Origin: an uncultured bacterium
Lineage (GTDB): Bacteria; Bacillota_I; Bacilli_A; RFN20; CAG-826
Assembly (NCBI GenBank): GCA_949291375.1
Contig: CASEVI010000006.1
Coordinates: 1 to 52,534 of the forward strand
DNA length: 52,534 nucleotides
Direction: 5' to 3'
Numbering within the stretch: position 1 is the stretch's first letter; every line of letters starts with the position of its first letter. The notes below the pieces were generated by a model. That model was not told the DNA's origin, ran no database searches, and worked only from the letters and a program-made list of their open reading frames with translations. A program made the translations under genes and the position numbers. Shown piece by piece: positions 5,172-52,388 of the stretch.

Positions 5172-5207
5172 AAAGTGAATATTTTTTCTTGTTTAAGCAT
5201 TCTTGTA
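5172..5207 (+). repeat. bipartite intergenic motif, copy 1
   Basis: AAAGTGAATA (5172-5181), 14 nt, AGCATTCTTGTA (5196-5207). The same two blocks recur with a 15-nt gap at 43098-43134 and, inverted, at 52349-52385. In this copy the left block is the right arm of the palindrome TTCACTTTAAAGTGAA, and the right block runs into the small hairpin GTAC-TAT-GTAC. It lies between the end of the redox cluster and the ZIP transporter gene. Confidence 0.6.
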
Positions 5208-5213
5208 CTATGT

Positions 5214-5256
5214 ACGGGGTGGTTGAGCCTTTTATATAAGAACCCCGTTCTTATAT
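5214..5256 (+). promoter_or_regulatory. mutually exclusive hairpins upstream of the ZIP gene
   Basis: ACGGGGT (5214-5220) can pair with ACCCCGT (5242-5248). Alternatively ATATAAGAAC (5234-5243) pairs perfectly with GTTCTTATAT (5247-5256) around a CCC loop. The two pairings share 5242-5248 and cannot coexist. Switches of this kind are typical of riboswitches and attenuators, and the downstream gene is a metal transporter, but there is no clear U-tract and the sequence matches no riboswitch class I can name. Whether transcription crosses this region is unknown, since a -10-like box lies downstream of it. Confidence 0.4.
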
Positions 5257-5291
5257 TATATATATGTATAAATAAGTATTTTATAGATAGG

Positions 5292-43097: not shown

Positions 43098-43134
43098 AAA
43101 GTGAATATTAAACCTCCTTTATAGCATTCTTGTA
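43098..43134 (+). repeat. bipartite intergenic motif, copy 2
   Basis: AAAGTGAATA (43098-43107), 15 nt, AGCATTCTTGTA (43123-43134). The right block forms the loop of the hairpin between greA and comEA. The other copies are at 5172-5207 and, inverted, 52349-52385. Confidence 0.6.
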
Positions 43135-43151
43135 TATAAAGGAGGTTTTTT
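43110..43151 (+). terminator. hairpin: greA terminator that also covers the comEA ribosome site
   Basis: AAACCTCCTTTATA (43110-43123) pairs perfectly over 14 bp with TATAAAGGAGGTTT (43135-43148), loop GCATTCTTGTA, followed by more T to give TTTTTT (43146-43151). It has the form of an intrinsic terminator. The right arm contains AAAGGAGG (43138-43145), the Shine-Dalgarno for the ATG at 43152, so any read-through mRNA would have that site buried. Confidence 0.8.
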
Positions 43152-43703
43152 ATGATAATTAAGGTTATTTTGGGAGCTTTAGTAGTTACAGTTATTGGGC
43201 TTGTTGTTTTTAAAGCGATTGATCCAAACTTAAATAATGGCGGAAATAACGATTCTTCTTTAATAAACGATGGAATTGAAGAAGAAAATAAAATTTCTGT
43301 TGAAATAAGCGGTGAAATAACAAGAGCCGGCAATTATGTATTGGATGAAGGTGCCTCGATGGCTGATTTAATTGAAGCTGCTGGCGGAGTTACAACCAAC
43401 GCTGATGAAAGATGCTATTATTTTGAGGCTATTTTAACCGAAAATGAATCTTATTATATTCCACCAAAATTTGAGGTTGATGATGTTTGTGGAAATAATC
43501 CGATTGAAAAGACAAATATTAACACTGCATCGCAAGCTGAATTAATGGATATAACCGGAGTTGGAGCTACAATAAGTCAAAAAATCATCTCTTATAGAGA
43601 TGAAAATGGTACTTTTTATACCCTTGAAGCATTAAAAAATGTTTCTGGTATAGGTAATGCTACTTTTTCAAAAATGAGAAATGAAATAATTTTAAAGGAT
43701 TAA
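43152..43703 (+). CDS. comEA: competence protein ComEA
   Basis: This 183-residue protein has an N-terminal membrane anchor (residues 3-20, VILGALVVTVIGLVVFKAI), an SLBB domain (VEISGEITRAGNYVLDEG) and a C-terminal double helix-hairpin-helix DNA-binding domain (NINTASQAELMDITGVGATI, then SGIGNATFSKMRNEI). It binds double-stranded DNA outside the membrane and passes it to ComEC. The gene has an AAAGGAGG site buried in the preceding hairpin. Between SLBB and HhH lies a cysteine pair (ERCYY and DVCGNN). It has a normal layout for Gram-positive bacteria. Confidence 0.93.
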   Translation: MIIKVILGALVVTVIGLVVFKAIDPNLNNGGNNDSSLINDGIEEENKISVEISGEITRAGNYVLDEGASMADLIEAAGGVTTNADERCYYFEAILTENESYYIPPKFEVDDVCGNNPIEKTNINTASQAELMDITGVGATISQKIISYRDENGTFYTLEALKNVSGIGNATFSKMRNEIILKD

Positions 43704-43704
43704 A

Positions 43705-45729
43705 ATGATCTTTTTAACTATTTTTCTTTCTTTATTATCTTCATCATTATTTTATAATCAATCTTTTATTTATGGTTTGATTTTTTTAATCATAAATATC
43801 TTTTTGTTAGTAAAAGAAAATAATAAAAAATTATTTGTCGTTTCTATTGTTTGTTTTGTAAGTTTTATTATCTTTTTATTTATAAAGTCTTTGCTAATAG
43901 ATATAAATTTAAATTATTTTGTTGTAATTGAAAGAAAAGAAAGTTATGCAATTATTTTTAATGGCTTTAAATCTTATTATTTAGATTTAGAAAAAGATTC
44001 ATCATTAGATTCTTTTGATATTATTAAAATATCAATTCCATCATTAAAAGAGTTAGATTTTACTCAGTTAGAATCGGGATTTGATTTTAAATCTTATTTA
44101 TTTTCAAAAAGCGTCGATTATGAATTAAATTATGAAAAGATAGAGGTAGTTTTCAACTTTCCTTTATCTTTTTATTTTTTAAAAAAGAATTTTTTAGACT
44201 CTATTGAAAATCCAATATATCGAAATTTCTTAAGCGGATTTTTATTTTCTTCGTTAAATTATGATTTAAAAGAAACATTTTTAATTAAAGATTTACAAAT
44301 TATTACTTTATTTTCTCAAACAGGTATATATTTAAATTTTGCTTTATATGGTTTGAAAAAAATAATTGAATTAAAAATCGATGAAAAGAAAGCTCCAATC
44401 ATATCTTTTTTACTATTTTTTCCATTTTTGATTATAAATATAATTCGTTTTACAACTATTAAAGTTATAAGTTTTTATATATTTAACTATATAAATAAAT
44501 TTTATTTTGATAAAAGGTTTAATCGTCTTGAAACTATATCGATTTTAGGATCTATATTTATTATTTTAAGTAGTAGAATTGTTTATCAAGCTAGTTTTTA
44601 TATCTCTTTTTTGCTTTATTTTTTCCTTTATTTAACTTCCTCAAAATTTTACGAGCTTAAAACAATTGAGAAAAAAATAGCAACACAAGTTTTATTAACT
44701 TTTTTAATAATTCTTTTCAATATTTCTTTTAATAACTCAATTAATGTTTTATCTATAATTTTTATGATGATTTTATTACCGTTTAGTAAAATAATGTTTA
44801 TCATTTCTTTATTAACATTTTTATTTTTACCAATGGCTGTTATTGAATGGCTATTAAATATTACATATCGAATAATTTATGCTTTAGATTCTTTAAAAAT
44901 TAATATATTTGTACCACCGCTTAACGAATTTGGAATAATTATATACTTTTCGTTATTATCTTTTTTCCTTTATTTTTTTGAAATTAATTATAAGAAAAGA
45001 TATCAACAAATAATTATAATTTTTACAATTTTATCATCATTATATATAGCTCCGATTGAAAATAGTTTTACTTATCAAGTTAGTTTTATAAATGTTGGTC
45101 AAGGGGATTCAACATTGATTAGAGATAAAAATAAAACATATTTAATTGATACAGGCGGTTTAACATATACGGATTTAGCAACAAATAATCTAATACCTTT
45201 TTTTAAGAAGAATCGTATTTATTCGATCGATGCAGTTATTTTAACTCATTATGATTTTGATCATTATGGTGCGCTTGAATCTTTAAAAGGAAATTTTAAT
45301 ATTAAAAATGTTTACGATTATAATAATTTTGATGATTTTAAAAAGAAATATGATTTAAATATCGAAAATTTAAATGATTATGTTGATGCTTGGGTTGATG
45401 AAAATAATCGTTCCTTAGTTTTATACTTAAATTTAGGTGAAAAATATTTTTTATTTACCGGTGATGCTTCAAAAGATGTTGAAAAAAGGATAATCGAAGA
45501 ATATAAAACTTTAAATGTTGATTGTTTAAAAATATCTCATCACGGTTCTTCATCGGCTACATCTTTAGATTTTTTAAAAGCTACAAATCCAAGTGAAGCT
45601 ATAATATCAGTTGGAAAAAATAATTTTTATGGTCATCCAAATAAAGAAGTATTAGAAAATTTAGAAAAATGTAATATAAGAGTTAGAAGAACAGATTTAG
45701 AAGGAACTATCACATATAAATTTATTTAA
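43705..45729 (+). CDS. comEC: competence DNA channel protein ComEC
   Basis: This 674-residue protein has many membrane helices from residues 1 to about 440 (DUF4131/competence core, with a SGFLFSSLNY-type segment), then a metallo-beta-lactamase domain: INVGQGDSTLI, the metal site THYDFDHYGAL and KISHHGSSSATS. It forms the channel for single-stranded DNA; the C-terminal domain is probably the nuclease that degrades the non-transported strand. ComEB is missing, as in many genomes. It starts 1 nt after comEA with AAAGGA. It is shorter than the 776-residue Bacillus protein. Confidence 0.93.
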   Translation: MIFLTIFLSLLSSSLFYNQSFIYGLIFLIINIFLLVKENNKKLFVVSIVCFVSFIIFLFIKSLLIDINLNYFVVIERKESYAIIFNGFKSYYLDLEKDSSLDSFDIIKISIPSLKELDFTQLESGFDFKSYLFSKSVDYELNYEKIEVVFNFPLSFYFLKKNFLDSIENPIYRNFLSGFLFSSLNYDLKETFLIKDLQIITLFSQTGIYLNFALYGLKKIIELKIDEKKAPIISFLLFFPFLIINIIRFTTIKVISFYIFNYINKFYFDKRFNRLETISILGSIFIILSSRIVYQASFYISFLLYFFLYLTSSKFYELKTIEKKIATQVLLTFLIILFNISFNNSINVLSIIFMMILLPFSKIMFIISLLTFLFLPMAVIEWLLNITYRIIYALDSLKINIFVPPLNEFGIIIYFSLLSFFLYFFEINYKKRYQQIIIIFTILSSLYIAPIENSFTYQVSFINVGQGDSTLIRDKNKTYLIDTGGLTYTDLATNNLIPFFKKNRIYSIDAVILTHYDFDHYGALESLKGNFNIKNVYDYNNFDDFKKKYDLNIENLNDYVDAWVDENNRSLVLYLNLGEKYFLFTGDASKDVEKRIIEEYKTLNVDCLKISHHGSSSATSLDFLKATNPSEAIISVGKNNFYGHPNKEVLENLEKCNIRVRRTDLEGTITYKFI

Positions 45730-52293: not shown

Positions 52294-52318
52294 TAAATCT
52301 ACACTTATATAATATATA

Positions 52319-52388
52319 GGGAAAAATGATTTCCCAACCCTTGTACTATACAAGAATGCTACAAAAGTAAAATTTTATTCACTTTTTT
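52319..52388 (+). terminator. three successive hairpins after lepA
   Basis: GGGAAA/TTTCCC (52319-52324, 52330-52335), CTTGTA/TACAAG (52340-52345, 52349-52354) and AAAAGT/ACTTTT (52363-52368, 52381-52386) followed by T. The last has the U-run of an intrinsic terminator. The second and third coincide with the inverted repeat copy 3. Confidence 0.5.
52349..52385 (-). repeat. bipartite intergenic motif, copy 3 (inverted)
   Basis: On the minus strand AAAGTGAATA (52385-52376), 15 nt, AGCATTCTTGTA (52360-52349). The spacing is the same as copy 2. The downstream TAGTACAAGGGTTG resembles copy 1's CTATGTACGGGGTGG. Confidence 0.6.

Follow-up and report, generated by a model that had tools for sequence, protein, structure and literature searches.

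A bipartite intergenic motif as a probable competence promoter for a SigH/ComX-like sigma factor in an uncultured bacterium

The motif, its genes and its hairpins

The window, that is, the whole stretch of 52,534 nucleotides that was analyzed, carries three intergenic copies of a bipartite motif, as seen in Table 1. Each consists of AAAGTGAATA and AGCATTCTTGTA, with gaps of 14, 15, and 15 nt, and all three matched exactly. Since shuffled sequence was expected to hold 0 copies, the view of an earlier note that the motif is real and not due to chance was supported. The hairpins that it had seen beside the copies were also found: that at comEA (z -6.3) combines terminator and Shine-Dalgarno sequence, and the other two belong to elements resembling small RNAs. 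The flanks had been described as different, which is true upstream and only partly true downstream because two of the copies precede members of one family. Its reading as a conserved motif, not a recent duplication, stands, and no named motif matches exactly.

Table 1. Motif blocks, genes, and hairpin-forming elements in the window
Feature	Position	Strand	Evidence
-35-like block AAAGTGAATA, copy 1	5172..5181	+	exact match; 8/9 vs Listeria sigma-H -35 consensus
-10-region block AGCATTCTTGTA, copy 1	5196..5207	+	exact match; logo of 33 sites
Type I element (GGGG...CCC-loop hairpin), after copy 1	5206..5266	+	model R1 87.8 bits, E 9e-13; sequence was in the R1 training set
-35-like block, copy 2	43098..43107	+	exact match
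-10-region block, copy 2	43123..43134	+	exact match
Hairpin AAACCUCCUUUAUA/UAUAAAGGAGGUUU over promoter (predicted)	43110..43148	+	-19.7 kcal/mol, z -6.26
comEA, putatively regulated gene	43152..43703	+	TIGR00426, TIGR01259; HHH_3 and SLBB
comEC, same operon as comEA	43705..45729	+	TIGR00361 E 6e-44
Short divergent type I element, convergent with lepA	52311..52350	-	R1 23.9 bits, E 0.45, weak
-10-region block, copy 3	52349..52360	-	exact match
-35-like block, copy 3	52376..52385	-	exact match

The genome of the window (G000; 1,288,206 bases, or 1.29 Mb, in 12 contigs; 26.2% GC) contains eight exact matches to the full pattern and no match to its reversed form. The shorter form GTGAATA-N14/15-AGCATTC gave 14 sites, compared to none when reversed, and a mismatch-tolerant scan found an excess of sites at gaps of 14 and 15 alone. 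With a weight matrix at a score of at least 18, there were 32 sites at these two gaps, compared to one to six in third-order Markov genomes and six for 13 other gap lengths combined. The matrix was trained on the same sites and its count is, therefore, descriptive; enrichment is tested independently by the contrast in spacing and by the counts of exact patterns. The count above that of base composition and the conserved spacing, on which the earlier note had made its claim depend, were thus both seen. In total, about 33 sites were found, with spacing strictly of 14-15 nt, and the logo of 33 sites reads kGmATA - N14/15 - AgCaTTCTTGTA. A minority of sites have TGGCATA in place of GTGAATA with the register unchanged. 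Outside the genus group, exact matches to the motif were limited to three uncultured MAGs, of which one is named as Bacilli, and one Bacteroides genome, where the single occurrence is probably due to chance.

The motif lies just 5' of five competence and recombination units: comEA-comEC, comFA-comFC, dprA, recA, and rpsF-ssb. In most of the protein-gene units the distance from the end of the motif to the coding region is a few to about 60 nt; the motif, therefore, marks transcript starts and not the transcript ends in which the earlier note had placed a possible binding site. A promoter was absent from that note's proposals and is indicated by the gene context, with recA, comEA, comFA, dprA, and ssb downstream; the proposed protein-binding site would be right in this broad sense, and nothing points to the genome-organization mark it had also considered. 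Further units led by the motif are an ABC exporter pair, a secreted 163-aa protein, two unknown proteins, a protein with a Peptidase C39 domain (PF03412; C4:13207), and a 60-aa peptide, MNKVILTDKELENIKPGEAITLAAIIAIMIVSIIAVAAYKLFTSNDGIVKLPGGYQFSWN (G000:C4:62554-62754, with the motif at C4 - 62768). This peptide is 87-98% conserved across the motif-bearing sister genomes and has no Pfam match. With the C39-peptidase protein as a putative member of its regulon, it could be a pheromone or bacteriocin that is exported. A simple, non-rigorous regular-expression search for the comG operon found no T2SS-type ATPase or prepilin signature. At most of the remaining motif sites, a short, G-rich element able to form a hairpin follows immediately.

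At comEA, dprA, and the 60-aa peptide, an inverted repeat overlaps the promoter (z -6.3, -3.1, and -1.9, respectively). The spacer or the -10 block contains its left arm, and its right arm is the Shine-Dalgarno sequence, followed by U. The hairpin at comEA is likely the greA terminator, which would also mask the comEA Shine-Dalgarno sequence in read-through RNA. In RNA reading through from an upstream gene, the hairpin would either cause termination or mask the ribosome site, and RNA started at the motif promoter would be without the left arm. Similar layouts of promoter and hairpin recur at dprA and comFA of many relatives.

Two families of small-RNA-like elements

About 20 loci in this genome are small-RNA-like elements, which fall into two families, type I and type II. 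Type I has 12-13 loci, including both elements of the window. The relative CASEKC (L098) carries an element comparable to the weakly scoring one of the window, followed by what looks like the same end of lepA. We made a type I covariance model (R1) from sequence that excluded the promoter, and it found nine loci in G000, nine in G106, eight in G113, one in G137, and one in G153. Since training included sequences from G000 and its close relatives, the counts for these genomes are partly by construction; the G137 and G153 sequences were not in the training set. R1 had no hit in a further 21 members of the genus. All 28 R1 hits in the five genomes have the promoter, or the version of their clade, just upstream.

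The type I hairpin is kept despite changes in the stem: ATATAAGAA[C/T], TATTATAAAAAT, TATAAAATAAG, and TAATTAAATAC all pair and have a C-rich loop, and the CCC loop persists while the stems are rewritten by compensatory changes. Counts of pairs exceeded those of shuffles and slid controls on two alignments, and 2 of the 28 hits had a different best hairpin in a simple hairpin search. Single-sequence folding energy of the window element was no better than that of shuffles (z -0.4). The window gave no Rfam match at the gathering score and copy 1 gave none at E<=1, and a riboswitch or other known RNA was rejected on these grounds. Orthology was assessed by comparing flanking sequence with the central 240 nt masked. 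All nine type I model loci of G000 were at orthologous positions in G106, a sister species, and seven were in G113. The window element after copy 1 is among those with a type I element at the orthologous locus in G106. The locus L239 is orthologous to a G153 locus with a fully rewritten stem. Type II has about seven loci in G000 and carries ACGTCGACGT, and its structure has no covariation support. This near-invariant palindrome is common to the type II RNAs, for example at G000:C1+105610.

The multiple intergenic copies in both orientations, with a conserved unit of about 100 nt at many sites, could be explained by a small mobile repeat (MITE/REP-like) carrying promoter and hairpin, as the earlier note had suggested. 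This is extremely improbable. The type I loci are one-to-one orthologous between species, which speaks against a mobile repeat; the promoter also occurs alone before recA, comFA, and dprA, the stems evolve by compensation at fixed loci (e.g., L239 vs L226), and there was no Rfam match over the window or copy 1. Another possible explanation is that the type I and II elements are untranslated leaders or terminators of the adjacent genes and not regulatory RNAs. Some of them do lie 5' of a same-strand gene (a Zip transporter and a trxB-like gene), and the sequence after the hairpins is AU-rich with no clear U-run. We consider it unlikely, since many elements have no downstream gene to lead because the next gene is convergent (lepA, an enolase-like gene, and others), and the sequence and CCC loop are common to loci with unrelated neighbors.

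These small-RNA-like loci probably act as sibling antisense regulators, with C-rich loops that would be able to pair with Shine-Dalgarno regions; we infer this function from the sequences themselves. The best predicted partner of type I is the translation start of an alpha/beta hydrolase-like gene (G000:C5:25033), where pairing was only slightly better than the reversed-sequence control (mean -20.7 vs -18.1 kcal/mol). Predicted targets were not clearly above this control and we claim none of them. A first top target was rejected as it lay inside the HPRT coding region, at a wrong start.

A candidate sigma factor and its co-divergence with the promoter

These data suggest, with a probability of about 0.8, that the motif serves as a competence-regulon promoter recognized by an alternative sigma factor of the SigH/ComX-like type, which would switch on the competence and recombination genes together with the roughly 20 small-RNA-like loci. 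AAAGTGAATA, with the degenerate core kGmATA, would act as the -35 element, and the -10/discriminator region would correspond to AGCATTCTTGTA; both sigma binding and transcription at the motif are predicted from sequence. Once active, the sigma factor would transcribe comEA-comEC, comFA-comFC, dprA, recA, and rpsF-ssb, the 60-aa peptide and the C39-peptidase protein, and about 20 short RNAs of the two families.

The sigma set of the genome consists of two RpoD-like proteins, two ECF sigma factors, and one weaker sigma-like protein of 195 aa. The RpoD-like genes are in tandem (G000:C4:20109-22570; 422 and 391 aa). The ECF genes are at G000:C1:260339-260875 and C1:209521-210087, and each is followed by an anti-sigma-like protein without a family match. 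The cognate factor is most likely the 195-aa protein (G000:C1:350640-351224), as judged by synteny, weak profile similarity, and co-divergence. In G000 its gene follows rlmB and precedes nusG; most genus members share this order and encode similar proteins of 190-240 aa at the position. The rlmB-nusG position is that of the Firmicutes sigH locus (PMC3364868), and sigH of Staphylococcus aureus adjoins nusG (PMC3486894). The protein shows full-length similarity to TIGR02937 (E 9.5e-6), at 25 bits compared to a curated cut-off of 42.9. The spore_sigH profile matched weakly (E 1e-3), and only in the G085 orthologue, and Pfam sigma regions 2 and 4 were not significant in the 195-aa protein. The Listeria sigma-H promoter consensus is RMAGGRWWW at -35 and RRMGAAW at -10, separated by N11-12 (PMC4754846). 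The -35 sequence AAAGTGAAT agrees with RMAGGRWWW at 8/9 positions, as does the version in G098 and G143, ATAGGGATA. No RRMGAAW was found at N11-12; AGCATTCTTGTA starts 15-16 nt after the 9-mer and the -10 of the motif is without the GAAW core. Since the -35 fits the sigma-H consensus and the -10 does not, we call the factor SigH/ComX-like and not proven SigH.

The exact motif was present in 4 of the 13 genus members sampled, and these are the four genomes with the closest orthologues of the 195-aa protein (100, 86, 80, and 53% identity). The protein appears to be fast-evolving: in G137 it is 53% identical while NusG is 92% identical, and the values in G098 are 30% and 58%. In most genus members, comFA and dprA are each preceded by the promoter, which diverges by clade with matching differences at the two genes. 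The version in G098 and G143 is AGGGATAAA...ACATTCTTGTATA (also given as AGGGATAAA...ACATTCTTGTATAGT), that in G085 is TTAGGGTA...CATCTTGTATGT, and that in G049 is TTTGGGAA...CATCTTGTTATA. The comFA and dprA promoters thus seem to change in step with the 195-aa protein.

The promoter reading could be right and the cognate factor still be the second RpoD-like protein or an ECF factor, as two tandem RpoD-like proteins and two ECF genes exist. We find this rather unlikely. The ECF factors were rejected because neither had a hit in the motif-bearing G137 (a 96% complete draft); G153 has a changed promoter and an ECF1 that is 89% identical, and anti-sigma-like genes follow both ECF genes. It is quite improbable that the blocks are instead half-sites of a DNA-binding competence activator, with transcription by the ordinary RpoD holoenzyme. 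The inverted GAAT/ATTC within the blocks, TATAGT/TATATA just after the motif at several sites, and a second RpoD-like sigma in the genome are in line with such an activator. Against it, no RpoD-like -10 is common to all sites (type II has TTGTCTAGTAAACG and type I TTGTACTACGTACG), the second block is at a fixed short distance from the RNA or Shine-Dalgarno start, and the motif co-varies with the sigma-like gene at the sigH locus.

Comparison with known systems

Both SigH competence promoters and sibling small RNAs are already known as kinds. What appears to be new is their combination, along with the promoter sequence and the two RNA families; a search of the open-licence literature found neither this promoter nor competence in these organisms described. 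The competence promoter reading predicts a testable regulon in an uncultured lineage of Bacilli, for which no transformation studies were found in the literature, clearly illustrates how a sigma factor and its promoter change together within a genus, and adds two small-RNA families, with about 20 loci per genome, apparently tied to competence. A tentative extension is that the competence sigma regulon is mostly non-coding: more than half of its promoters would drive the two new families, entry into competence would trigger a large small-RNA-mediated change in translation, and sigma factor and promoter would be rewritten together by clade.

The sigma-H systems of Listeria, Lactobacillus sakei, and Staphylococcus aureus are similar in the position of the sigma gene next to nusG (PMC3364868, PMC3486894), in the control of comE and other competence genes (PMC4754846, PMC3364868, PMC3486894), and in the -35 element (PMC4754846). 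They differ in the -10 region, which is RRMGAAW in those systems and AGCATTCTTGTA here, with a spacing that is a few nucleotides longer. The regulon described here also includes recA, dprA, ssb, comF, and the small-RNA-like loci, and its sigma protein has diverged too far to be recognized by the SigH family models.

Streptococcal ComX/SigX is a dedicated, fast-diverging sigma factor for late competence genes, including com genes, recA, dprA, and ssb. The candidate resembles it in its fast divergence and in these genes; in contrast, the cin-box TACGAATA differs from the motif and the sigma gene here is at the sigH locus. We know of no small-RNA family of such a kind under ComX.

The streptococcal csRNAs are similar small intergenic RNAs of one CiaR regulon, linked to competence and with sequences able to pair with Shine-Dalgarno regions (PMC3091779, PMC4507080). 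The elements here would likewise be several similar intergenic loci in one competence-linked regulon. Unlike the csRNAs, they have the competence motif itself upstream of type I elements, and not a CiaR-box promoter (TTTAAG repeats). Their sequence and structure are also different, with no Rfam match, and they form two unrelated families with about 20 loci, compared to five in S. pneumoniae.
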